Below are positions 3,244 to 19,139 of a DNA stretch of 20,064 nt, one piece after another (within the stretch, counting starts at the first letter, position 1; every line of letters begins with the position of its first letter). The translations under genes were made by a program, and so were the position numbers. The notes beneath the pieces were generated by a model. That model worked only from the letters and a program-made list of their open reading frames with translations. It searched no databases and was not told the DNA's origin. The stretch is from a virus: the IMG/VR virus record IMGVR_UViG_3300042309_001719, positions 1-20,064 of that record; one strand, written 5' to 3'.

Positions 3244-3439
3244 GTCCCATCTCCTTTGCTTGCCATGCGCTGTAGTGCACGAGGTTGATCGTTCCATCAA
3301 CGTTCACCGGCGCACCTTCTTGTACGTCCAGTCGAATCTCCTCTGGCTCGATGCGTTCTCGGAATGCGGCCGACAATAGCTTCGCTGCTTGCTCTAACGA
3401 AAGCCTCGTCGGATCGACCTGATTGTTTCCTTCACTCAT
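3233..3439 (-). CDS. Small protein in the terminase small-subunit position
   Basis: 68 aa, MSEGNNQVDPTRLSLEQAAKLLSAAFRE to EMGRGE. GGAGAA lies 5 nt before the ATG. It overlaps the large terminase by 11 nt, so the two are translationally coupled. The segment LSLEQAAKLLSAAFRERIEPEEIRLD looks like a short helical DNA-binding fold, but the protein is much shorter than typical TerS (about 150 aa) and no family is recognised. Since the large terminase carries its own HTH-like N-terminus, DNA recognition may be split between the two. Function is inferred from position only. Confidence 0.7.
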   Translation of the reverse strand: MSEGNNQVDPTRLSLEQAAKLLSAAFRERIEPEEIRLDVQEGAPVNVDGTINLVHYSAWQAKEMGRGE

Positions 3440-3633
3440 CGCATTTCTCCATGGTTTGGCATCTTGAAACGTGGGGGCACCGATTGCGCACTGTCGCGTC
3501 TTAGCCGCATGTTCGCCTCGTTATGCGGAGCATGTTTGGACGCGACCGTCGCGTAATGTTGGGGCACCGGTGGCCTCCCAGGAAACATGCAGAATTACTG
3601 GAAAAACATGCGGGAATCGCCTGGATGTTCCTC
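3440..3633. promoter_or_regulatory. Divergent control region with AACATG/CATGTT sites
   Basis: No gene is visible here. The region separates the leftward terminase operon from the rightward accessory island. It contains four short sites in both orientations: CATGTT at 3508 and 3531, AACATG at 3584 and 3605. The same hexamers cluster before cassette repeat 4 (5732, 5742) and before the decayed repeat 7 (7901, 7954, 7976, 7986). They could be half-sites for a regulator, but no clear -35/-10 pair can be assigned for the leftward promoter. Confidence 0.4.
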
Positions 3634-3661
3634 GAAACGCATGGCTCATGTGTGTCATCGC
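3634..3661 (+). repeat. Cassette leader repeat, copy 1
   Basis: GAAACGC followed by the invariant ATGGCTCATGTGTGT and CATCGC. This is the most diverged of the six good copies in its flanks: it lacks the upstream GGCTTGATG block that copies 3, 5 and 6 carry intact. It lies 73 nt (counted from its ATG to the gene's ATG) before the amidoligase start. Confidence 0.85.
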
Positions 3662-3713
3662 GACGCAGAAAACGCGACGCAAAACACACCTCGAACCACA
3701 AAGGAACAGAACG

Positions 3714-4571
3714 ATGAACGCAAACGAAATCGCCTTCGGAATCGAATTCGAAACCACCCTCCCCGGTACCGACAACACACCGATCGGACCCTACCACAGC
3801 GGATACCAAGTACCTTGGCTGCCAACCGGATGGAAAGCAGAACGCGACGGGAGCATCCGCCCCGAAAACAACGCACGCAAAGGATGCGAGTTTGTAAGCC
3901 CAATACTCAAAGGGGTTGATGGCGTACGACAGATCGAAAACGCGATCGACCAAATCAACGCACGAGGTGGCCAAGTAAATTCGAGCTGCGGCCTTCACAT
4001 AACGGTTAGCTGGAATGGAGACGCGGCCGCTTTGGCAAGATTGATTTCCTTGGTCGGCAACCACGAACGAGCGATTTACGCTTCGACCGGAACCCGCAAA
4101 CGCGAACAAATGATGTACGCCAAGCGAATCAAACAATACGGAAACAAAGACAACGCCAAGAGCCGATGCGAATCGGATCGCTACCACCTGCTGAACCTGA
4201 CCCACCTGACCCGCGGCAAGAACCGAATCGAGTTCCGAGCCTTCGGCGGAACGCTCAACAAGACCAAAGTGGTCGGATACCTGATGATGGTTTTGGGTTT
4301 GGTTGAACTCGCCCTCAATACCAAACGCTGCAGCGAATGGGACTACATCAAAAAGGAAGGCACCAAGAGTTGCTGGGATCGCCCTGGTGCCGGCCTTGGC
4401 GAGACGGAACTCAACCGATTGTTCTACCGACTCGGATGGACCAAGGGTTGGTACAAGGGTGCCCTTCGCGACAAGGTCTACGGAGAGATCGCCAGCGAAA
4501 CCAAACCGGAATGGAAAACGATCAAAACCAAGCTCCTCGACCTCGCCCGCAAATACGACCGCGCGGCATAG
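3714..4571 (+). CDS. Amidoligase (Amidoligase_2, glutamine-synthetase-like fold)
   Basis: 285 aa from the ATG at 3714, chosen because AAAGGA lies 8 nt upstream; the frame stays open upstream but has no better start. Motifs in order fit the Amidoligase_2 family: FGIEFETTLPG near 7-17 (metal-binding Glu), GCEFVSPIL near 59-67, CGLHITVSW near 93-101 (His) and RIEFRAFGGTLN near 174-185. All expected polar residues appear present, so the enzyme is probably active. The family is predicted to join a carboxyl and an amine using ATP, making peptide or isopeptide-like bonds; the substrate is unknown. In a phage it could modify a peptide, a cell-wall component or a small molecule. It is the largest gene of the plus-strand island, headed by repeat 1 and followed by a terminator-like hairpin, so it looks like a self-contained unit. 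Confidence 0.85.
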   Translation: MNANEIAFGIEFETTLPGTDNTPIGPYHSGYQVPWLPTGWKAERDGSIRPENNARKGCEFVSPILKGVDGVRQIENAIDQINARGGQVNSSCGLHITVSWNGDAAALARLISLVGNHERAIYASTGTRKREQMMYAKRIKQYGNKDNAKSRCESDRYHLLNLTHLTRGKNRIEFRAFGGTLNKTKVVGYLMMVLGLVELALNTKRCSEWDYIKKEGTKSCWDRPGAGLGETELNRLFYRLGWTKGWYKGALRDKVYGEIASETKPEWKTIKTKLLDLARKYDRAA

Positions 4572-4589
4572 CCCACAACCAAACGAAAC

Positions 4590-4613
4590 GCCGAACACGG
4601 AGGTTCGGCTTTC
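4590..4613 (+). terminator. Terminator-like hairpin after amidoligase
   Basis: GCCGAAC at 4590-4596 pairs with GTTCGGC at 4603-4609 around a 6-nt loop and is followed by a short T run (4610-4612). It lies 19 nt after the amidoligase stop. The T run is short, so efficiency is doubtful. Confidence 0.6.
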
Positions 4614-4791
4614 ACACGTTTGGCGACGTGGGGCCAATTTTACGTCACCGTGGGGTCGAATCGTGTATGTCACTAATAGTGGCCAAACCCGAACCGCAAC
4701 ACAACGCGGCGCGTTTTGTGCGAACTGACGCGATCCTAAAAAACATTCAGATTCCTTTTGGAATCCTCGAAGGCTCGGCTTGAGGTTATTC

Positions 4792-4819
4792 GAACCGCAT
4801 GGCTCATGTGTGTCATCAC
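4792..4819 (+). repeat. Cassette leader repeat, copy 2
   Basis: GAACCGC, the invariant 15-mer, then CATCAC. Upstream is CGGCTTGAGG (4776-4785), and before it a small hairpin, GATTCC-TTTT-GGAATC (4750-4765). Downstream the TAAACGATTC block is shared with copy 3. It lies 61 nt before the next start codon. The rest of the gap 4614-4791 holds no gene. Confidence 0.88.
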
Positions 4820-4859
4820 GTAAACGATTCCATTCCCTTTCCGAAACGGAGAAAAAACC

Positions 4860-5150
4860 ATGAGCGAAACAACCAACAACGTCGAGCAAGCGATTCAAGC
4901 ACAACTGCGACGCCTCGAATGGATGATCCCCGACGCGCAACGGCGCTTGGCCGGTGTCGCACAAGAGATGTTGCGACGGGCCCAAAACGCGGTTCACGAC
5001 ACAGAGGCCATGCTGGCCAACCAACCCTGCAGCATGTCCTGGGTTGAGTTCGCTGAATGCGATCTCCGCAACGCGCGTGAAGCTAAAGCAGATCTCACCA
5101 AACTCTACGAGCAGCAGGCAATGCTCAAGTTCTTTTTGAAGAACGACTAG
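4860..5150 (+). CDS. Small helical protein, cassette 2
   Basis: 96 aa, MSETTNNVEQAIQAQLRRLE to LKFFLKND. Composition and heptad-like spacing suggest two or three long amphipathic helices with coiled-coil character: residues 8-50, and 60-96 after a NQPCSMSWVEF turn. GGAGAAAAAACC before the ATG supplies a good Shine-Dalgarno at the spacing used throughout the island. No family is recognised, and no signal peptide or membrane segment is seen. It is a single-gene cassette between repeat 2 and a strong terminator. Confidence 0.8.
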   Translation: MSETTNNVEQAIQAQLRRLEWMIPDAQRRLAGVAQEMLRRAQNAVHDTEAMLANQPCSMSWVEFAECDLRNAREAKADLTKLYEQQAMLKFFLKND

Positions 5151-5166
5151 CGAGAGAGATGGAATG

Positions 5167-5203
5167 GCCGGCGGCCCAAAGGAGCCGCCGGCAAATTCTT
5201 TTT
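5167..5203 (+). terminator. Strong intrinsic terminator
   Basis: A perfect 9-bp GC-rich stem, GCCGGCGGC (5167-5175) with GCCGCCGGC (5184-5192), has an 8-nt loop and is followed by AAATTCTTTTT. It starts 16 nt after the stop of the 96-aa gene. This is the clearest terminator in the island. Confidence 0.85.
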
Positions 5204-5235
5204 GAAATGTTTGCAAGCTCGGCTTGATGCGTTTT

Positions 5236-5263
5236 GAGCCGCATGGCTCATGTGTGTTATCGC
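5236..5263 (+). repeat. Cassette leader repeat, copy 3
   Basis: GAGCCGC, the invariant 15-mer, then TATCGC, preceded by CGGCTTGATGCGTTTT (5220-5235). It lies 61 nt before the start of the 85-aa gene. It follows directly on the terminator at 5167-5203, so transcription of the next gene must begin here or be retained by readthrough. Confidence 0.9.
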
Positions 5264-5303
5264 ATAAACGATTCGAACCCTTTTCCGAAACGGAGACAAG
5301 ACC

Positions 5304-5561
5304 ATGGCCAAGAACAGTAACGAACACAAAGCAACCGACGCAGCCCTTCGCGTGATTTTCAAAGCGATGGAAGCACACCAAGCACAAGAGATTCGAGAAG
5401 CGTACTACAACGCGGTCGAGGGATTGCGAACCTTGGCAGACGCCCTTGAGATTGCCGACGCCAACCAACAAGAGTCCGCAGGCCCTTTGCTCGTCGAACA
5501 CCTTTACGCCATCGAAGCCATCGACGCAATGAAGCGAAGTCGGCTCGGCGCGATCCTCTAA
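5304..5561 (+). CDS. Small helical protein, cassette 3
   Basis: 85 aa, MAKNSNEHKATDAALRVIFK to RSRLGAIL. It is predicted almost fully alpha-helical and acidic in the middle (ALEIADANQQESAGPLLVEHLYAIEAIDAM). AACGGAGACAAGACC before the ATG is the island's shared ribosome-binding context. No family is recognised and no membrane segment or cysteine motif is seen. It is a single-gene cassette between repeat 3 and a terminator. Confidence 0.8.
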   Translation: MAKNSNEHKATDAALRVIFKAMEAHQAQEIREAYYNAVEGLRTLADALEIADANQQESAGPLLVEHLYAIEAIDAMKRSRLGAIL

Positions 5562-5586
5562 ACCACCGCACAACGGAATGCCACGG

Positions 5587-5616
5587 ACGCCGCGAACGGA
5601 TGCGCGGCGTATTCTC
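5587..5616 (+). terminator. Terminator-like hairpin after cassette 3
   Basis: ACGCCGCG (5587-5594) pairs perfectly with CGCGGCGT (5603-5610) around an 8-nt loop, followed by ATTCTC. The T tract is poor. It begins 26 nt after the stop codon. Confidence 0.65.
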
Positions 5617-5781
5617 ATTCGGTCGCGACAGTCGCCCACCGTCGCGTCCTTTGTCTCGGATGCGACTGACGACCCCACATGGAAACAAGTGCAACACACG
5701 CCAACGTGGGGCAATGTGTGGCATGCAAACAAACATGAAAAAACATGTGGAAAAGCTGCTGAAATCGGCTTGCTGCAGTTC

Positions 5782-5809
5782 GAACCGCATGGCTCATGTG
5801 TGTTATCGG
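5782..5809 (+). repeat. Cassette leader repeat, copy 4
   Basis: GAACCGC, the invariant 15-mer, then TATCGG. Upstream lie CGGCTTGCTG and two AACATG sites (5732, 5742). It lies 58 nt before the next start. The remaining gap 5617-5781 holds no gene. Confidence 0.88.
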
Positions 5810-5846
5810 AAAACGATTTTTCATTCACAACAACGGAGACAAGAAC

Positions 5847-6116
5847 ATGAATCTCGACACCCTGATCGAAATCCTCAACGACTACCGCGATGAACATGGC
5901 GGCGATGCCGAGGTCCGGTTGATGACCCAACAGAACTGGCCATTTGAGAACCGCATTTGTGGCGTTACCTCGGGCCAAGAGATGAACGACACAAACGACG
6001 ACGACGAAGCCGACGACGATCAAGACGTTGCCGACGAAAACATCGTTTACATCGTCGAGGGTGGTCAGATTTGTTACGGCAGCAAACGAGCATGGGACAC
6101 ATGCCGAAATAGCTGA
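5847..6116 (+). CDS. Acidic conserved hypothetical protein, cassette 4
   Basis: 89 aa from the ATG at 5847, preceded by AACGGAGACAAGAAC; an upstream in-frame ATG inside the repeat lacks a Shine-Dalgarno. It has an N-terminal helix (LDTLIEILNDYRDEHGGDAEVRL), a central MTQQNWPFENRICGV strand region, a strongly acidic linker (NDDDEADDDQDVADE) and a C-terminal NIVYIVEGGQICYGSKRAWDTC. The pattern GGDAEVR...WPFE...VYIVEG.Q..YGSK.AW recalls small proteins found on phages and plasmids, but no function is known to me. A nucleic-acid-mimic or partner-binding role for the acidic linker would be speculation. Confidence 0.82.
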   Translation: MNLDTLIEILNDYRDEHGGDAEVRLMTQQNWPFENRICGVTSGQEMNDTNDDDEADDDQDVADENIVYIVEGGQICYGSKRAWDTCRNS

Positions 6117-6137
6117 TTGCAACACAGCGATGCGCCT

Positions 6138-6175
6138 GGGGAAAGATTCTGAAAAACCTTCAGAATCTTTTCCCC
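6138..6175. terminator. Bidirectional terminator-like hairpin
   Basis: GATTCTGAA (6145-6153) pairs with TTCAGAATC (6159-6167) around AAACC, with AAA before and TTTT after. GGGG (6138-6141) and CCCC (6172-6175) extend the stem. It lies 21 nt after the stop of the 89-aa gene. The A tract and T tract could allow termination in both directions. The GATTC...GAATC theme recurs before repeats 2 and 6. Confidence 0.7.
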
Positions 6176-6193
6176 TTCGGCTTGATGCGGTTT

Positions 6194-6221
6194 GAACCGC
6201 ATGGCTCATGTGTGTCATCGC
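6194..6221 (+). repeat. Cassette leader repeat, copy 5
   Basis: GAACCGC, the invariant 15-mer, then CATCGC, preceded by CGGCTTGATGCGGTTT. It lies 60 nt before the next start. This is the only copy not in the same codon phase as the other five relative to the island's shared frame. Confidence 0.9.
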
Positions 6222-6260
6222 AAATGCAATTTCAGTCCAAACCAGCTTAGGAGAAACAAG

Positions 6261-6509
6261 ATGCCAACCATGACAAACCGACCACGCCTGACCTCGGCCC
6301 AGTTCCTCAGCGCACACCGACGAGCGCTCCAGTCCGTCAGCGACCTGTACGCAGCGATCGAGGAGATGCCGATCCTTGCCGCTGCCGACCCAACAACCCT
6401 GAGACATTTCTTTGACGAGCTGGCCGATGTGCAAGCCACGGCTGCGAAGCTCGCCCAACATTTCCGAACACAGGTATGCACCAAAGAAAAGATTCCGAAA
6501 TCCTTCTGA
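6261..6509 (+). CDS. Small helical protein, cassette 5
   Basis: 82 aa, MPTMTNRPRLTSAQFLSAHR to KEKIPKSF. It is helical and Ala-rich, with hydrophobic heptads (SVSDLYAAIEEMPILAA, HFFDELADVQATAAKLAQHF). AGGAGAAACAAG before the ATG gives a good Shine-Dalgarno. An ATG at 6270 would drop three residues. Its last codons and stop lie inside a GATTC...GAATC inverted repeat (6491-6512) that normally precedes a leader repeat, so its C-terminus seems to run into the cassette boundary. No family is recognised. Confidence 0.78.
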   Translation: MPTMTNRPRLTSAQFLSAHRRALQSVSDLYAAIEEMPILAAADPTTLRHFFDELADVQATAAKLAQHFRTQVCTKEKIPKSF

Positions 6510-6528
6510 ATCCGGCTTGATGCGTTTT

Positions 6529-6556
6529 GAACCGCATGGCTCATGTGTGTTAACGC
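6529..6556 (+). repeat. Cassette leader repeat, copy 6
   Basis: GAACCGC, the invariant 15-mer, then TAACGC, preceded by CGGCTTGATGCGTTTT, identical to copy 3 in that block. It lies 55 nt before the start of the 104-aa gene and only 20 nt after the previous stop. It is the last good copy and seems to head a three-gene set (6591-7814). Confidence 0.9.
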
Positions 6557-6590
6557 GAAAACGATTCACCAACCCAACAACGGAGACGAA

Positions 6591-6905
6591 ATGACCGAAC
6601 ACGACCTCGACCTCACAATCACCAAGATCAGCAACCGCAACCGCACCGCTGGCGGATCTTGGGTACAAGGCAAGATCAACGATGAATACCGCTTCGACGC
6701 CTTGGTCTTCGCCGACCACGCCGACCAAGAATCCTTCGAACTGAATCAAAGCAAAATTTCGAAGCTTTGGATTCAGCGACTTTCCGACCGGAAAGTAATG
6801 TTCAACTTCGACCGTGGTTTGGATGTGCCGGCGGTCAACACGGAAGTCCAAGTGGTGGTCGACTTCCTTTGCGAGGGATTGTCGGACTTGGTCTTTGGTC
6901 AATAA
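6591..6905 (+). CDS. Conserved hypothetical phage/plasmid protein, cassette 6
   Basis: 104 aa from the ATG at 6591 after AACGGAGACGAA. It shows GGSWVQGKINDEYRFDALVF, then SKISKLWIQRLSDRKVMFNFDRGLD, then a helical C-terminus VNTEVQVVVDFLCEGLSDLVF. The arrangement W..G.i...F.A.VF...ISKL.I......FDRG.D resembles a family of short mostly-beta proteins (DUF7678-like, by memory) found in phages and plasmids. Function is unknown. After the gene, 6906-6998 holds a small inverted repeat (two CGATCG) but no convincing terminator, so it may share a transcript with the next gene. Confidence 0.8.
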   Translation: MTEHDLDLTITKISNRNRTAGGSWVQGKINDEYRFDALVFADHADQESFELNQSKISKLWIQRLSDRKVMFNFDRGLDVPAVNTEVQVVVDFLCEGLSDLVFGQ

Positions 6906-6998
6906 GCCGAAACGCAGCACGGACGCGCGTAGTCGATCGGTGGTTCGATCGGCCTGACGATGGCAGCCAACCACGAACACAGAATTGGAGAGACGAAG

Positions 6999-7568
6999 AT
7001 GAAGAAGGCAGAAGTAAAGATTGGTGGCAAGTACTACGCGAACGTTTCGGGCAACCGATGCGAGATTCAAATCGATGCCGAGAAGCCTCGCGGTGGCTGG
7101 GATGCAACCAACCTCGCAACCGGCAAGAAGATACTCATTAAGAGCGCTCAACGCCTTCTGGGAGAAGTGGGTGCGAAGCGGGGACGCGCGAAGGTCACCA
7201 CTGAAGGCAACGTAACGGTGGTTGAGAACGAACCGGCAACCGTCGAAACGATCGGGGGCGAAACGTCCACAGCGGTTGCGGTTCTCAAGAAGCCACGCAA
7301 AGCCAAGACCGAAACTACCGAGACCGGCGACGCCGGCGAGAAGCGATTGAGCTGCGTCGCTGCGGCCTTGAAAGTTCTTGGCGAATCGAGCGAACCGATG
7401 AACGCACAAGAGTTGATCACGGCGATGGAATCGAAGGGCTATTGGACAAGCCCTGGAGGCAAGACTCCACACGCGACGCTGTACAGCGCGATCCTTCGCG
7501 ACTTGGCCAAGGGCGACGACAGCAAGTTCGTAAAGACCGAACGCGGACGATTCACGGCTCGAGGCTAG
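6999..7568 (+). CDS. HARE-HTH (winged-helix) domain protein
   Basis: 189 aa from the ATG at 6999, preferred over 6960 because GGAGAG lies 6 nt upstream. The N-terminal part (1-60) is a small beta-rich module, MKKAEVKIGGKYYANVSGNR to ILIKSAQRLLGEV, followed by a basic, Thr/Glu-rich flexible linker. The C-terminal part (about 118-189) runs from CVAAALKVLGESSEPMNAQE through ELITAMESKGYWTSPGGKTP to a final FVKTERGRFTARG. This is the HARE-HTH pattern: helix, PM..QEL, GKTP..TLYS.ILRD, and a F.K...G.F hairpin. HARE-HTH domains occur in RNA polymerase delta, ASXL proteins and restriction enzymes, and are thought to sense DNA modification or contact DNA. In a phage with its own DNA methylase, a modification reader is an attractive guess. 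Confidence 0.85.
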   Translation: MKKAEVKIGGKYYANVSGNRCEIQIDAEKPRGGWDATNLATGKKILIKSAQRLLGEVGAKRGRAKVTTEGNVTVVENEPATVETIGGETSTAVAVLKKPRKAKTETTETGDAGEKRLSCVAAALKVLGESSEPMNAQELITAMESKGYWTSPGGKTPHATLYSAILRDLAKGDDSKFVKTERGRFTARG

Positions 7569-7580
7569 GAGACCAAGCCG

Positions 7581-7814
7581 GTGAAATACTTTTACGATTT
7601 GCGAACGGTGGATGACCTGGCCGACGGCGAGATTGCAACTCCAGAGCCAGGCATCACCTACGACCTGCGAACGATCAACAATCGCAGACTCGACGTCGGC
7701 AGCGTTGTTGACGTGATCCGACAAGGCCCAGTTCTGTTCGCGCGAACGACCAACGGAGACTCGATCGCAGTCTCCGGCCACGGCGCTGCCATCCTGGTAC
7801 CGCACGATTTGTAG
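7581..7814 (+). CDS. Small beta-rich hypothetical protein (GTG start)
   Basis: 77 aa, starting at GTG with AGGAGACC 9 nt upstream and only 12 nt after the preceding stop, so it is co-transcribed with the HARE-HTH gene. MKYFYDLRTVDDLADGEIAT is followed by ITYDLRTINNRRLDVGSVVD and a C-terminal VSGHGAAILVPHDL. The YDLRT motif occurs twice (residues 5-9 and 27-31), hinting at an internal duplication of a short strand-turn unit. No family is recognised. Confidence 0.78.
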   Translation: MKYFYDLRTVDDLADGEIATPEPGITYDLRTINNRRLDVGSVVDVIRQGPVLFARTTNGDSIAVSGHGAAILVPHDL

Positions 7815-7847
7815 ACAAGCCCGAAGCACGGAACGCTTCCCACCAAT

Positions 7848-7877
7848 CGCCCCACGTTTACACCGTGTGGGCGTTTT
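7848..7877 (+). terminator. Terminator-like hairpin closing cassette 6 operon
   Basis: CGCCCCACG (7848-7856) pairs imperfectly with CGTGTGGGCG (7864-7873), with a small internal bulge, and is followed by TTTTCTC. It lies 33 nt after the stop of the 77-aa gene. Confidence 0.6.
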
Positions 7878-7991
7878 CTCGTTGATGCGAACATAAGCCC
7901 AACATGCAACACAACGCGACACGTCGCGAAACTGCCGTTCGCCGGCGCAGCCACATGTTTGGAAGAATTTCGCAAAACATGCTCGCATGTT

Positions 7992-8036
7992 GGCTTGATG
8001 TTTTTGCGATTCGCTGGCTGACTGTTGAGGATCGTC
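7992..8036 (+). repeat. Decayed cassette leader repeat (copy 7)
   Basis: GGCTTGATG is intact, followed by TTTTTG, CGATTCGCTGGCTGA and GGATCG. It resembles the good copies in order and spacing but has lost the invariant 15-mer. It sits before a three-gene set (8067, 8295, 8538) just as the others sit before theirs. AACATG/CATGTT sites at 7901, 7954, 7976 and 7986 precede it. The gap 7878-8066 holds no gene. Confidence 0.5.
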
Positions 8037-8066
8037 TTTCGTTTCTCCAACAACCAGGAACCAACC

Positions 8067-8282
8067 ATGGCCCAACCAGCCCTTGAGCCGGCAGCTCCCT
8101 ACGAGAACCTTCACCTCGTTGCACGCGATTACCTCGATCGATTGCGTCATTCGCTCGACGCCTTGCAACAACCAGATGACCCAAAGCTGCGATGGCGGAA
8201 CGTTCACACGATGGCGCAGGTCAACGCACGCCTGGCTCAAGCCGGCGAGCTGCTCGACAAACTCAACGCAACCACCAAATGA
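8067..8282 (+). CDS. Small helical hypothetical protein
   Basis: 71 aa from the ATG at 8067, with AGGAACCAACC upstream. MAQPALEPAAPYENLHLVAR is followed by DYLDRLRHSLDALQQPDDPK and a C-terminal QVNARLAQAGELLDKLNATTK; two amphipathic helices are predicted. The loop LRWRNVHTMAQ is the only notable segment. No family is recognised. It begins a tight three-gene run (gaps of 12 nt each) with the DUF4314 and MSTRATI-type genes. Confidence 0.75.
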   Translation: MAQPALEPAAPYENLHLVARDYLDRLRHSLDALQQPDDPKLRWRNVHTMAQVNARLAQAGELLDKLNATTK

Positions 8283-8294
8283 AACAAGGAACCA

Positions 8295-8525
8295 ATGACT
8301 ATGCAGACACGATTGAAGAAAGGCGATCGCATCCGTTTGGTATCGATGCCGCAAGATCCAGACCCGATCCCCGTTGGATCGCTCGGGACTGTTGTCGCCG
8401 TTCATGACCACCGCGATTGGGCGCAGGTCGATGTCGACTGGGACAACGGCCGCTCGCTCATGCTGACGATGCCCGACGATTGTGTCGCCATCGTCGAACC
8501 CAACCACCACGAACCATCGAAGTAA
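8295..8525 (+). CDS. DUF4314 family protein
   Basis: 76 aa with AAGGAACC upstream (an in-frame ATG at 8301 is also possible). KKGDRIRLVSMPQDPDPIPV, then GSLGTVVAV, then WAQVDVDWDNGRSLMLTMPDD match the DUF4314 pattern: GDRI.L..M..DP.PI..G..GTV........V.WD.GR.L.L...D. It is predicted to be a small SH3-like beta barrel. The family is common in phages and mobile elements; no function is established that I know of. Its neighbours 12 nt away on both sides point to one transcript. Confidence 0.88.
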   Translation: MTMQTRLKKGDRIRLVSMPQDPDPIPVGSLGTVVAVHDHRDWAQVDVDWDNGRSLMLTMPDDCVAIVEPNHHEPSK

Positions 8526-8537
8526 GGAAACCAACCT

Positions 8538-8855
8538 ATGTCCACAAGAGCAACGATTGCCTGCAAGCAGGAAGATGGTCGCTACGCGGCTATCTATCTT
8601 CACTTCGATGGCTACCAAGACCATGCCGGCAGAGTCCTCAAAGAACATTACACATCGATCGAGTCGGCGCGAACGCTGGTCGCAGGCGGCGATATTCGGT
8701 CGCTCGCCAACGACGGAACGCCCGAACGATTCACCGACGGCAACCGAGCGGTTGTCATGCCCACTCGCGCAGCCTTGCATGAATTCGCCAGGAACTGCGG
8801 AGCGGAGTACATCTATGTCTTTGAAGACGAGGCTTGGCATAGTCATAAGTTTTGA
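8538..8855 (+). CDS. MSTRATI-type conserved phage protein
   Basis: 105 aa with AAGGAAACC upstream. MSTRATIACKQEDGRYAAIY and then LHFDGYQDHAGRVLKEHY, a middle TLVAGGDIRSL, and a C-terminal EYIYVFEDEAWHSHKF. The MSTRATI...DG...IY.H.DGY....G..L...Y.......L...GD...L pattern is a recurring small phage protein family of unknown function. The gene ends 10 nt from the convergent methylase stop, and no terminator fits between them, so the two convergent transcripts must overlap. Confidence 0.85.
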   Translation: MSTRATIACKQEDGRYAAIYLHFDGYQDHAGRVLKEHYTSIESARTLVAGGDIRSLANDGTPERFTDGNRAVVMPTRAALHEFARNCGAEYIYVFEDEAWHSHKF

Positions 8856-8865
8856 TCGCGACCTC

Positions 8866-10245
8866 CTATCGCATGTTATGTTCACGAGGCTGCATTGGGA
8901 TCGGAGATTCGCCGGTCCGTTCCAGGATGGCCTTGTTACCAGAGAACCTTTGGTACCTATCAACGATGACGTCACAGTAAAGCGTGTCGAGTTCCATCAA
9001 GAACGAATTGCGACCACATTGCTCGGCACCGATCATCGTCGAGCCACTACCACCAAAGAGATCAAGCACGTTCTCGCCTTGCACTGACGAGTACTGCATC
9101 GCGCGAACGGCAAGCTCCGCTGGCTTCTGAGTCAAATGTGACATTGACTGCGGATTGATCTTCTTCACCTGCCATAGGTCCGTCGCATTCTTGGGACCGT
9201 AGTACTTATGCCCAGCCCCTTCCTTCCATCCATAGAACGCCCATTCGTGAGCGCCCATAAAGTCCTTGCGTGTTAGGACCGGATGCTGTTTGTCCCAAAT
9301 GATGGACTGCGAGAAGTAGAGACCATGCTTCTTCAGCACGGGCGGATAGTTGCCGCAATTGGCGTAGCCGCCCCAGATGTAGAAGCAACGACCAGGTAGC
9401 AATACTCGGGCAATGTTTCCGAACCAATCTTCGAGCAGCTGATCAAAAGCCTCATCGCTAACAAAGTCGTTTGCTAACGGACGGTCTTTAGCACGAAGCT
9501 TTTTGTGCGTCGCCGCATGCTTCGGTTTGCCAGTCTCATGATCGACACCGAATGAAGCAGCGTTACCCTGGCCACCTTTGAGCCTCGAAGATGCTCCATC
9601 GTTCGTGAACGACGAGAGGCCGGCAGCGATTGCGTTGTTCGATCGCGGTTCAACCTTCACATTGTAAGGCGGATCTGTATTGCAAAGGTGAATCGCAGCG
9701 CCGGCCAGCAAACGATCCAAGTCTGCCGGCGATGAGGAGTTGCCACAGAGCAACCGATGGTTACCGAGGATCCAAAGATCGCCAGGTTGAGTGACCGCTT
9801 CGTCTGGCGGCTCGGGGATGTCATCCGGATCAGTCAAGCCTTCGTTGACGCCGGTATCCATCAGCTTGGCAAGTTCCTCAGCGTTGAATCCAAGCAACCC
9901 GAGATCGTAGTTCGCTTCCTGCAAAGCCGACAATTCGATCGGCAATAGATCGTAATTCCAATCAGATAGCTCTGCAGTCTTGTTATCAGCGATTCTGTAA
10001 GCCTGCACGGCTTCCGGCTTCAAATCGCGTGCTACGTGGACTGGAACGACAGATAGCCCAAGCTTCTTTGCTGCCTTCCATCGCGTGTGCCCGACAATAA
10101 TCACGCCATCGGCATCAACAACAATTGGTTGACGAAATCCCCACTCCTGAATACTTTTGGCAACAGCATCAACTGTCCCATCATTGATACGCGGGTTATT
10201 TTCGTATGGTCTAATCTGATCAATGGGTGTTAGCTTAATTTCCAT
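8866..10245 (-). CDS. ParB-domain / DNA N4-N6 methyltransferase fusion
   Basis: 459 aa. Residues 1 to about 130 are a ParB/Srx-type domain: KLTPIDQIRPYENNPRIND, QPIVVDADGVIIVGHTRWKAAKKLG near 39-63, and AYRIADNKTAE. The rest is a beta-class amino-methyltransferase with the catalytic DPPYN at 191-195 before the SAM-binding DLFGGSGST near 395-403; motif order IV then I defines the beta class. It transfers methyl from SAM to an exocyclic amine of adenine or cytosine. No cognate restriction enzyme is present, so it is an orphan phage methylase, perhaps protecting phage DNA or controlling packaging or transcription. The fused architecture is common in phages and prophages. It follows an HNH endonuclease gene with a 6-nt gap. 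Confidence 0.93.
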   Translation of the reverse strand: MEIKLTPIDQIRPYENNPRINDGTVDAVAKSIQEWGFRQPIVVDADGVIIVGHTRWKAAKKLGLSVVPVHVARDLKPEAVQAYRIADNKTAELSDWNYDLLPIELSALQEANYDLGLLGFNAEELAKLMDTGVNEGLTDPDDIPEPPDEAVTQPGDLWILGNHRLLCGNSSSPADLDRLLAGAAIHLCNTDPPYNVKVEPRSNNAIAAGLSSFTNDGASSRLKGGQGNAASFGVDHETGKPKHAATHKKLRAKDRPLANDFVSDEAFDQLLEDWFGNIARVLLPGRCFYIWGGYANCGNYPPVLKKHGLYFSQSIIWDKQHPVLTRKDFMGAHEWAFYGWKEGAGHKYYGPKNATDLWQVKKINPQSMSHLTQKPAELAVRAMQYSSVQGENVLDLFGGSGSTMIGAEQCGRNSFLMELDTLYCDVIVDRYQRFSGNKAILERTGESPIPMQPREHNMR

Positions 10246-10251
10246 AGCAAG

Positions 10252-10824
10252 TTACTTCCTTCTTCGAGAAACGGGAGGGGGAAACGGAATGTGTGACCAA
10301 GTCTTTCCAACGATCGCGTCATAGGCGGTCATCTTGTGGACTCCAATGGCTTTTGCTGCGTCAACAATGCTTGAACCAAACTCGACAAGACATCTCAAGC
10401 GCACGACGGTATCAGTCGTTAAACTGGCTAAGTGGTGCTCAGCGCCTCGGTGTGCTCCTTGCACGACGCCGAGCCGAATGTTGTCCGCTGCGTTTTCTTT
10501 TTGCGTCGCCCAGCGAAGATTGCTTACGTGATTGTTTTGCTTGTTTCCGTCGTAATGAGCGACCTGGGCATTGGGAAATGGCGGAGGGCCAAGGAAAGCA
10601 AGGGCAACCAGCCGATGAGCCTTAACAGTCCAGTACTTGCGACACTTGCTCAGCGAGTATCTGGGATATCCATGCACGTCCAAACGACACTTCATCACAT
10701 AGCCGGCTGGGGCCATCTTTGAAGCGTTCTTTCGCCGCAATCGTCCTATCGATGAGATTTCGTAGAGTTCTTCGTAGCCGGGGACTGGCAGCCAAGATTC
10801 GACTTCGGTTTCGCTATTCGACAT
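10252..10824 (-). CDS. NUMOD4/HNH homing-type endonuclease
   Basis: 190 aa. NUMOD4 motif at 11-31 (WLPVPGYEELYEISSIGRLR), HNH_3 core near 82-111 (AHYDGNKQNNHVSNLRWAT with the preceding KAHRLVALAF), and a C-terminal helix-turn-helix near 145-180 (VDAAKAIGVHKMTAYDAIVG). This combination is typical of free-standing phage homing endonucleases that nick or cut DNA in a sequence-tolerant manner. The start overlaps the upstream stop by 11 nt, with GAGG nearby. It is a relative of the endonuclease at 15514-16032 but not a close duplicate. Confidence 0.92.
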   Translation of the reverse strand: MSNSETEVESWLPVPGYEELYEISSIGRLRRKNASKMAPAGYVMKCRLDVHGYPRYSLSKCRKYWTVKAHRLVALAFLGPPPFPNAQVAHYDGNKQNNHVSNLRWATQKENAADNIRLGVVQGAHRGAEHHLASLTTDTVVRLRCLVEFGSSIVDAAKAIGVHKMTAYDAIVGKTWSHIPFPPPVSRRRK

Positions 10825-11927: not shown

Positions 11928-12246
11928 TGAATGGTTTCCTACGAAGGGGTGACAGGTGACTAACGACAAAGACGAATTGCGATCGCAGTGCAGCTTCGAA
12001 GTGGGTCTGCAGCGGCTGATGGATACATGCCATAGGGCATCAGAGAGAACTCGATAGTTCGCGACTTGATCGGGGCACCGAACCGGACTCGAACAATGGA
12101 CATCTGATTGCTCAAGAATCAGTCGAGTGCGCAGGGTTGCGGAGGGTATTTTGGTTGTTTTCCATGCGCGTGCGCGCATGGCAGATAACGAAATAACCAT
12201 GCGCAACCCTGCGCACTTGGCAAAATCCCAATGTTTTTGAGGGTTT
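11928..12246. other. 319-bp non-coding gap with nested inverted repeats
   Basis: No gene is supported here. A perfect 15-bp inverted repeat, GTGCGCAGGGTTGCG (12127-12141) and CGCAACCCTGCGCAC (12202-12216), encloses a perfect 8-bp hairpin CCATGCGC-GTGC-GCGCATGG (12162-12181). GAGTGCGCAG recurs as a direct repeat at 12125 and 12286, the latter inside the end of the primase gene. No T tract follows on either strand, so it is not an intrinsic terminator. It abuts the primase-helicase gene, so a replication origin or a structured RNA is plausible. Confidence 0.6.
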
Positions 12247-15139: not shown

Positions 15140-15529
15140 CTAGGCGATCTCCATTGCGGGCGAAAGCGTCTGTGATTCGGCATCATCGATCTGCACTTTG
15201 ATCTGTCCCTTCGGTTTGCATTCATGCTTGATCGACAGCAGCCAAACGACCTGCGAGTCGTCCCAGAACACGCCAGCATGCTGCAACGCATCGAGAACAG
15301 CCTTTTGCACGTTGTCACAATCGCGACGACGATCATCGGGCAGTGCAATGTCGATGCGGATCGCAAGTGGACCCATCAATGGTTTGATGCTTTTGGCGAT
15401 CGCGATGCGACGGACTTGGTGCCGATAGGTACGTGCGTCCTTAGATAGAACTGGACGCCCCTGGTAATAGCTGAAGTAATGATTTATGCTTGGTGGAAAC
15501 GGAAGTTCAAGTTCTATACGTGAGTCCAT
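15140..15529 (-). CDS. rusA: RusA family Holliday junction resolvase
   Basis: 129 aa with AAGGAAGAAC upstream. The catalytic pattern is complete: D70, D72 and K76 in RRRDCDNVQKAVLDAL, and D90/D91 in GVFWDDSQV, followed by K101. In E. coli RusA D70, D72 and D91 bind metal and K76 assists, and the numbering here agrees. The N-terminal LPFPPSINHYF is also typical. The dimer cuts four-way junctions made during recombination or replication, which can resolve branched DNA before packaging. The gene lies between an HNH endonuclease (16-nt overlap) and a small gene (2-nt gap), in a replication/recombination operon. Confidence 0.95.
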   Translation of the reverse strand: MDSRIELELPFPPSINHYFSYYQGRPVLSKDARTYRHQVRRIAIAKSIKPLMGPLAIRIDIALPDDRRRDCDNVQKAVLDALQHAGVFWDDSQVVWLLSIKHECKPKGQIKVQIDDAESQTLSPAMEIA

Positions 15530-16032
15530 GTTCTTCCTTTCAACAGTGCAATTACTGTGGCTCGCGTAATATCGAATCGAGATGCAATCTCTCCATATGA
15601 GTGTCCACTTGTCCTAAGTTCTCGAATCAGCGGAACATCTCTTTCTGTAATCTTTGCGCTCGAACTGCGGCTACCTCGTGCAATAGTTCCGTGAAGCCGC
15701 TTATCGCATCCGTTTGCTTCAGGCGTATCCCATCGCAAATTTTGGAGAATGTTGTTCTGTCGATTACCGTCGTTATGACAAGCTTCGTGACCAACTGGAC
15801 AATTCCCCACGAAGGCCTCTAGAACTAGGCGGTGAACTGATCGCCAATGGAGTTTTCCATTTCTAGTTAGACCGACACGCAGATACCCTCTTCGAAGCTG
15901 AGGTTTAAGCCTGTGCCAATCATCTGATTTATCTTTCCAGCGACTGAAAACAAGCTGCGACCAAACAGTGCCGTCGGTCCCGATCCGATAACCAGGGAAC
16001 CCAGATACAACGTGATACTCAACGTCGGCCAT
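15514..16032 (-). CDS. NUMOD4/HNH homing-type endonuclease, second
   Basis: 172 aa if started at the ATG at 16032 (MADVEYHVVSGFPGYRIGTDG); an upstream in-frame ATG at 16086 would add 18 residues that look unlike the family. The NUMOD4-like N-terminus (VSGFPGYRIGTDGTVWS) is followed by the HNH_3 core (VHRLVLEAFVG, then HEACHNDGNRQNNILQNLRW) and a C-terminal helix-turn-helix (SYGEIASRFDITRATVIALLKG). The first NUMOD4 block is weaker than in the other copy. Its C-terminus overlaps the RusA start by 16 nt, which suggests a settled insertion rather than a recent one. Confidence 0.9.
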   Translation of the reverse strand: MADVEYHVVSGFPGYRIGTDGTVWSQLVFSRWKDKSDDWHRLKPQLRRGYLRVGLTRNGKLHWRSVHRLVLEAFVGNCPVGHEACHNDGNRQNNILQNLRWDTPEANGCDKRLHGTIARGSRSSSAKITERDVPLIRELRTSGHSYGEIASRFDITRATVIALLKGRTWTHV

Positions 16033-19099: not shown

Positions 19100-19139
19100 T
19101 CTATCTGTTGAAATACCCGGTACCCGGGTGAATTGACGG
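19100..19139 (-). promoter_or_regulatory. Bipartite 40-bp element, copy B
   Basis: TCTATCTGT-(3)-AATACCCGGT-(10)-ATTGACGG on the plus strand, the same blocks and spacing as copy A at 895-934. It directly abuts the stop codon of the sigma factor gene and ends 53 nt before the start of the 79-aa gene. In this copy the variable ten bases include ACCCGGGT, making the centre palindromic. A promoter or operator separating the sigma gene from the downstream early genes is the likely role. Confidence 0.6.

Follow-up and report, generated by a model that had tools for sequence, protein, structure and literature searches.

The 20,064-nt stretch of viral DNA analyzed here (the window; positions 1 to 20,064 of the IMG/VR viral record IMGVR_UViG_3300042309_001719) contains an array of accessory genes headed by copies of one short repeat element. 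The array is flanked by a terminase gene and by a ParB_N and N6/N4 DNA methyltransferase gene (8866 to 10245, minus strand), which closes it; both lie on the opposite strand. Six exact copies of the 15-mer ATGGCTCATGTGTGT are located at positions 3641, 4799, 5243, 5789, 6201, and 6536, all on the plus strand, and the window holds no further near-miss of this 15-mer at up to 3 mismatches. In shuffled sequences, matches to the 15-mer numbered 0.47 on average and 3 at most, and never six. The six near-identical repeats with an invariant 15-bp center described in the initial annotation are thus confirmed, and remeasurement returned the same coordinates and the same distances of 55 to 73 nt to the start codons (73, 61, 61, 58, 60, and 55 nt for copies 1 to 6, counted from base 1 of the 15-mer up to the ATG).

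Element 1 (3581 to 3662) precedes an amidoligase gene (PF12224; 3714 to 4571) and contains an A-rich block, CCTGGATG at 3620 to 3627, the core 15-mer at 3641 to 3655, and a predicted start A at 3657. The next four elements head genes c2 to c5, which have no Pfam match. Element 2 (4739 to 4820; TTG at 4780 to 4782, core at 4799 to 4813, predicted start A at 4815) lies before c2 (4860 to 5150), and element 3 (5183 to 5264; TTG at 5224 to 5226, core at 5243 to 5257, predicted start A at 5259) before c3 (5304 to 5561). Element 4 (5729 to 5810; TTG at 5770 to 5772, core at 5789 to 5803, predicted start A at 5805) is followed by c4 (5847 to 6116), and element 5 (6141 to 6222; TTG at 6182 to 6184, core at 6201 to 6215, predicted start A at 6217) by c5 (6261 to 6509). 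Element 6 (6476 to 6557; TTG at 6517 to 6519, core at 6536 to 6550, predicted start A at 6552) precedes c6 (6591 to 6905), which encodes a DUF7678 protein, and then a gene encoding a HARE-HTH protein. All six elements are on the plus strand. The left flank is GAACCGC, as initially annotated, in four of the copies; it is GAAACGC in copy 1 and GAGCCGC in copy 3. Similarly, the single block said to precede most repeats is found as CGGCTTGATG in three copies and as the variants CGCCTGGATG, CGGCTTGAGG, and CGGCTTGCTG in the other three. The terminator-like hairpin reported before most copies is clear before some, including element 3 (hairpin at 5167 to 5192, plus strand, between c2 and the element) and element 5 (GATTCTG...CAGAATC, immediately 5′ of the element), and not before all.

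Exact matches to the 18-mer CGCATGGCTCATGTGTGT were found in 65 stretches of viral DNA. A set of 84,980 species genomes of bacteria and archaea yielded 30 further stretches with it, every one from Planctomycetota and most of them from Pirellulaceae. Copies are tightly clustered in two complete chromosomes (SV_7m_r and TBK1r) and in seven other genomes, and these genomic clusters lie in prophages with the same gene order as the window. Outside the prophages, matches at 3 mismatches are about as frequent as those of reversed-pattern controls, and a host regulon was rejected. The element does not behave as a general host repeat unrelated to phage genes. A nucleotide search of 50,697 phage records returned no match, and a literature search for the core 14-mer found no paper.

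To describe the element, we gathered 272 distinct copies, 86 of them non-redundant, and numbered positions from the C of CGCATGG (position 0). The conserved unit is ~80 bp long and combines helically phased A-tracts, the block GCTTG(A/C)(T/G)G, the core CATGGCTCATGTGTG, and a pyrimidine-A. It is A-rich at about −57 to −53, −46 to −43, −36 to −33, and −23; the GCTTG(A/C)(T/G)G block at −18 to −11 is followed by a T-rich segment with AA at −3 and −2; the near-invariant core spans +2 to +16, and the pyrimidine-A lies at +18/+19. The TTG at −16 to −14 is near-invariant among the 86 non-redundant copies. The filter behind the 272-copy set partly dictated both the TTG and its distance from the core; in the exact-core set, gathered without a TTG filter, more than 180 of 198 copies have it. 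The phasing of the A-tracts was not imposed by the filter. Upstream A content is periodic at 10 to 10.5 nt, with an amplitude of 0.088 versus a maximum of 0.019 in 1,000 control samples of other CTTG(A/C)(T/G)G sites from the same phages. The A-tracts are spaced by one helical turn, and the TTG is situated 35 nt 5′ of the conserved pyrimidine-A.

The position of the element relative to genes is also constrained. An ATG with a Shine-Dalgarno (SD)-like site follows 263 of the 272 copies, mostly at 55 to 80 nt from position 0 (median, 63 nt; 90% at 57 to 76 nt). Terminator-like hairpins are enriched upstream (34 of the 86 non-redundant copies versus 15.2 in shuffles). Between orthologous pairs, the bins covering the core and the TTG have identities of 0.93 to 0.97, versus about 0.74 to 0.90 for flanking and coding bins. 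The fixed orientation and place, the phage-only occurrence, and the conservation above the flanks support the earlier proposal of a shared regulatory element.

The genes downstream belong to about 14 families, six of them common, and no BLAST similarity was detected between families, in agreement with the initial view that the genes behind the repeats are unrelated. When two phages have the upstream gene in common and not the following one, their similarity extends across the upstream spacer and the core and falls at +20 to +40; when they have the downstream gene in common, it climbs to its full value near the core. These pairs lack independence from one another, and the upstream genes were assigned by a mechanical procedure. 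The break in homology supports the suggestion that the repeats are seams for cassette exchange.

Because an exact 18-mer search favors invariant copies, we corrected for this bias by sampling relatives through their genes. Same-gene relatives were found to have altered cores (AGGGCTTCATGTGTG, ATGGGAAATGTGTTG, and ATGCGAACTGTGTGT are examples); the TTG block is for the most part retained. The core is therefore strongly, not absolutely, constrained: it can be called invariant within the window and in nearly all close relatives, and not in these same-gene relatives. Some relatives with the same gene order do lack the 15-mer, yet the element there is diverged rather than missing. With these diverged versions we group the seventh copy of the window. 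This divergent element (7993 to 8034, plus strand), which precedes the gene at 8067 to 8282, keeps GCTTGATG at 7993 to 8000 and has CTGGCTGACTGTTG in place of the core, followed by GATCG. It had been called decayed; because its (C/T)TGGCTGACTGT is constant in nine distinct relatives, whose gene is 83 to 100% identical, it is instead a fixed variant, conserved in freshwater relatives.

We infer from this architecture that the elements are promoters, with a predicted start site and a core that would be read by a phage-specific factor. Each element probably comprises a dedicated phage promoter and the beginning of the leader, a promoter that about 14 cassette families would have in common. The phased A-tracts (at about −55, −44, −34, and −23 in element coordinates) would act as an UP-like element, and GCTTG(A/C)(T/G)G would serve as the −35 region. 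The core CATGGCTCATGTGTG would contain a non-canonical −10 or melting region and a specificity determinant, and transcription would begin at the A at +19, about 44 nt 5′ of the start codon. Numbered from this A as the start, the TTG would lie at −35 and the A-tracts near −42, −53, −63, and −73. The alpha subunits of RNA polymerase can bind UP elements at helical positions like these, and A/T tracts at helical spacing upstream of a −35 region, which characterize UP elements, are present here with a period of 10 to 10.5 nt, far above control sites. Each accessory gene would then form its own unit, with a promoter, a ribosome site, the gene, and often a terminator, under one common regulator. As every cassette begins with this same stretch, recombination within it would exchange genes without removing them from the regulon, and a gene newly placed downstream of it would probably come under the same control.

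Several points weigh against a promoter. A single phage family accounts for most of the copies, which lack independence, and the register of the UP element is an argument by analogy. With the TTG as the −35 region and a 17-bp spacer, the −10 hexamer is CTCATG; the core is neither AT-rich nor similar to TATAAT. In addition, the spacer is conserved base for base, which is unusual for a promoter. Of the canonical sigma-70 layout (TTGACA and TATAAT-like hexamers, 16 to 18 nt apart) the elements have the TTG only. In favor of a dedicated promoter, a search of positions 3400 to 9000 for canonical sigma-70 promoters found none (2.5 expected). Relative to sigma-70 or extracytoplasmic function (ECF) promoters with UP elements, the elements are alike in their upstream A-tracts, TTG, plausible start site, and short leader; they differ in that the −10 is not TATAAT and that spacer and core are constrained nearly base for base. 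The mismatch between CTCATG and TATAAT points to a special factor or to a sigma factor of an unusual kind. Pfam scans of the window genes and of 20 further open reading frames of a near-identical 41.7 kb contig, which lacks most structural genes, detected no single-subunit RNA polymerase.

One candidate reader is a sigma-70-family factor encoded by the phage itself (19140 to 19736, minus strand; PF04542, 6.8e−7; phrog_1740, 7.8e−17). Under this version of the promoter reading, which is possible but doubtful, the factor would direct RNA polymerase to the elements, which would make up a phage regulon specific to this sigma. An alternative sigma factor would suit a promoter layout whose −10 is non-canonical, and exactly one sigma homologue was found in the fetched region of each array prophage (16 of 16), including a Roseiconus prophage with unrelated head genes. 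However, the homologues in marine prophages are about 18 to 38% identical to the window copy while the core is unchanged, and the segments expected to contact the −10 and −35 regions differ between phages that share the same core. Co-evolution of sigma factor and element was accordingly rejected. The sigma gene is also retained in relatives with diverged elements. The factor is too divergent for an obvious match to the element. Because it diverges strongly beside a constant core and is kept beside diverged elements, we do not commit to it as the reader.

Alternatively, the element may be used by the host polymerase with its main sigma factor, with the core bound, for activation or repression, by a DNA-binding protein of the phage that evolves slowly. 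We regard this second version of a promoter with reserve as well. The best candidate for such a protein is the HARE-HTH protein, perhaps together with the adjacent DNA methyltransferase. Genes for both, along with c3 and c4, are present in all 16 array prophages, as is a weak terminase match. A near-invariant GGKTPHATLYSAILR segment is retained in the HARE-HTH domain even in proteins whose N-terminal part has been replaced, and HARE-HTH domains have been proposed as readers of modified DNA (PMC11037411). Against this candidate, the GGKTPHATLYSAILR segment may be generic to the domain, and HARE-HTH is also found in distant relatives in which no element was found.

The HARE-HTH gene itself (6999 to 7568, plus strand; PF05066, 2.2e−12) would lie downstream of c6 on a transcript beginning at element 6. 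About 30 nt before it, abutting the c6 stop codon, lies a type II hammerhead ribozyme (6905 to 6972, plus strand; RF02276, 39.6 bits) with an intact core and a predicted cleavage site at 6931/6932. The hammerhead was found before the HARE-HTH gene in all 15 loci scanned with Rfam (the window and 14 others), and its core motif precedes 72 of 96 distinct HARE-HTH genes, versus 3.4% of random stretches; its stem sequences differ compensatorily between loci. The ribozyme probably splits the c6/HARE-HTH transcript. The HARE-HTH genes of two loci, L141 (around position 987, minus strand) and L221, have no hammerhead and instead have a cassette element directly upstream, as expected if the element makes a new 5′ end of a messenger RNA (mRNA) and the two serve as alternatives for the 5′ end of the HARE-HTH mRNA. 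Hammerheads flanking prophage genes are already known (PMC3088659); our literature search did not find one described in this HARE-HTH array context.

That a hammerhead acts elsewhere in the same array could also favor the element being an RNA signal in the 5′ leader, for protein binding, processing, or attenuation, which we consider unlikely. Some copies have a small stem, with some compensatory changes, that starts at +19, 3′ of the core (two matched outer pairs in 17 copies versus 5.9 expected). Such a stem is compatible with an mRNA 5′ end; it is missing from many copies, and a 5′ stem-loop was rejected as a general feature. An upstream dyad centered at −4.5, considered as a palindromic operator or MerR-like spacer, pairs at 4.1 of 8 positions with little covariation and is a weak hint only. 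The Rfam scan of the window found no known RNA family at the element, the hammerhead being the sole match. Moreover, phased A-tracts are a feature of DNA, and in several cassettes a separate promoter could not fit, given the terminators immediately 5′ of the element.

More improbable still is that the element is mainly a recombination seam or a site-specific recombination site for cassette exchange. The switch in homology at +20 to +40 where the next gene differs would fit, and a large serine integrase is encoded in a contig near-identical to the window. The same seams, however, are expected from ordinary homologous recombination within a shared promoter, and a recombination site leaves the phased A-tracts, the narrow start-codon distance, and the upstream hairpins unexplained. 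A conserved leader peptide (MAHVC...) read from the ATG that begins the core was rejected as scarcely credible, given that third codon positions vary no more than first and second ones, that the ATG is lost in the variants AGGGCT and CCTGGCT, and that the reading frame relative to the gene varies between copies.

A promoter-like element common to many cassettes has partial parallels elsewhere. As in morons, the accessory genes resemble units of their own that often end in a terminator and run opposite to the neighboring structural genes; classical morons have individual promoters, whereas here one promoter-like sequence is common to all. The initial annotation likened the repeats to the start-associated sequences (SAS) of cluster K mycobacteriophages, which lie 3 to 7 bp from the start codon and contain the SD core AGGAG within GGGATAGGAGCCC (PMC3203893). 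Both are short asymmetric repeats, present in one orientation before unrelated non-structural genes and absent from the host, but the likeness fails on position and sequence: the element stands 55 to 80 nt upstream, has no SD core, has a promoter-like upstream structure, and carries ATGGCTCATGTGTGT instead of GGGATAGGAGCCC. Membership in the SAS was rejected on these grounds. The closest functional analogy is the intergenic repeats of halovirus HF2 (class I, 58 bp; class II, 29 bp), which were shown to carry promoters (PMC8707807). They too are repeated viral intergenic sequences conserved in sequence and position within a virus group; HF2, however, is an archaeal virus with AT-rich promoter motifs and no known sequence relation to the bacterial virus element, whose core is not AT-rich.

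Other features were observed around the array. On the contig IMGVR_UViG_3300042406_001896 (L155/L156), near-identical to the window, the region past the sigma gene encodes a type I restriction-modification set, a YhcG-like nuclease, a ThiF/JAB fusion protein, and the large serine integrase, which has a DUF2924. Two HNH homing-type endonuclease genes (HNH_3, one with NUMOD4; 10252 to 10824 and 15514 to 16032, minus strand) lie within the replication region of the window and were not detected in the marine prophages. The leftward replication region also contains a 45-nt inverted repeat (12126 to 12217; 82% complementary, 2-nt gap). Finally, a 40-nt direct repeat (895 to 934 and 19100 to 19139; 80% identity, 18 kb apart), each copy just upstream of a leftward gene, is possibly a second promoter-like element for leftward operons.

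We tentatively propose that the elements represent an undescribed class of phage promoter, in which a nearly fixed 14- to 15-bp non-canonical −10/spacer box and phased A-tracts, served by a dedicated phage reader, would form a socket for exchangeable cassettes in Pirellulaceae prophages, paired with a hammerhead that would split off the HARE-HTH mRNA. A recognizable control socket before interchangeable genes provides a sequence tag by which accessory genes could be located in phages of planctomycetes, which are hardly represented in phage databases. It also raises a testable question, namely which protein holds the 15-bp box fixed while the phage sigma factor diverges below 40% identity, for which the diverged copies in same-gene relatives would serve as natural mutants.

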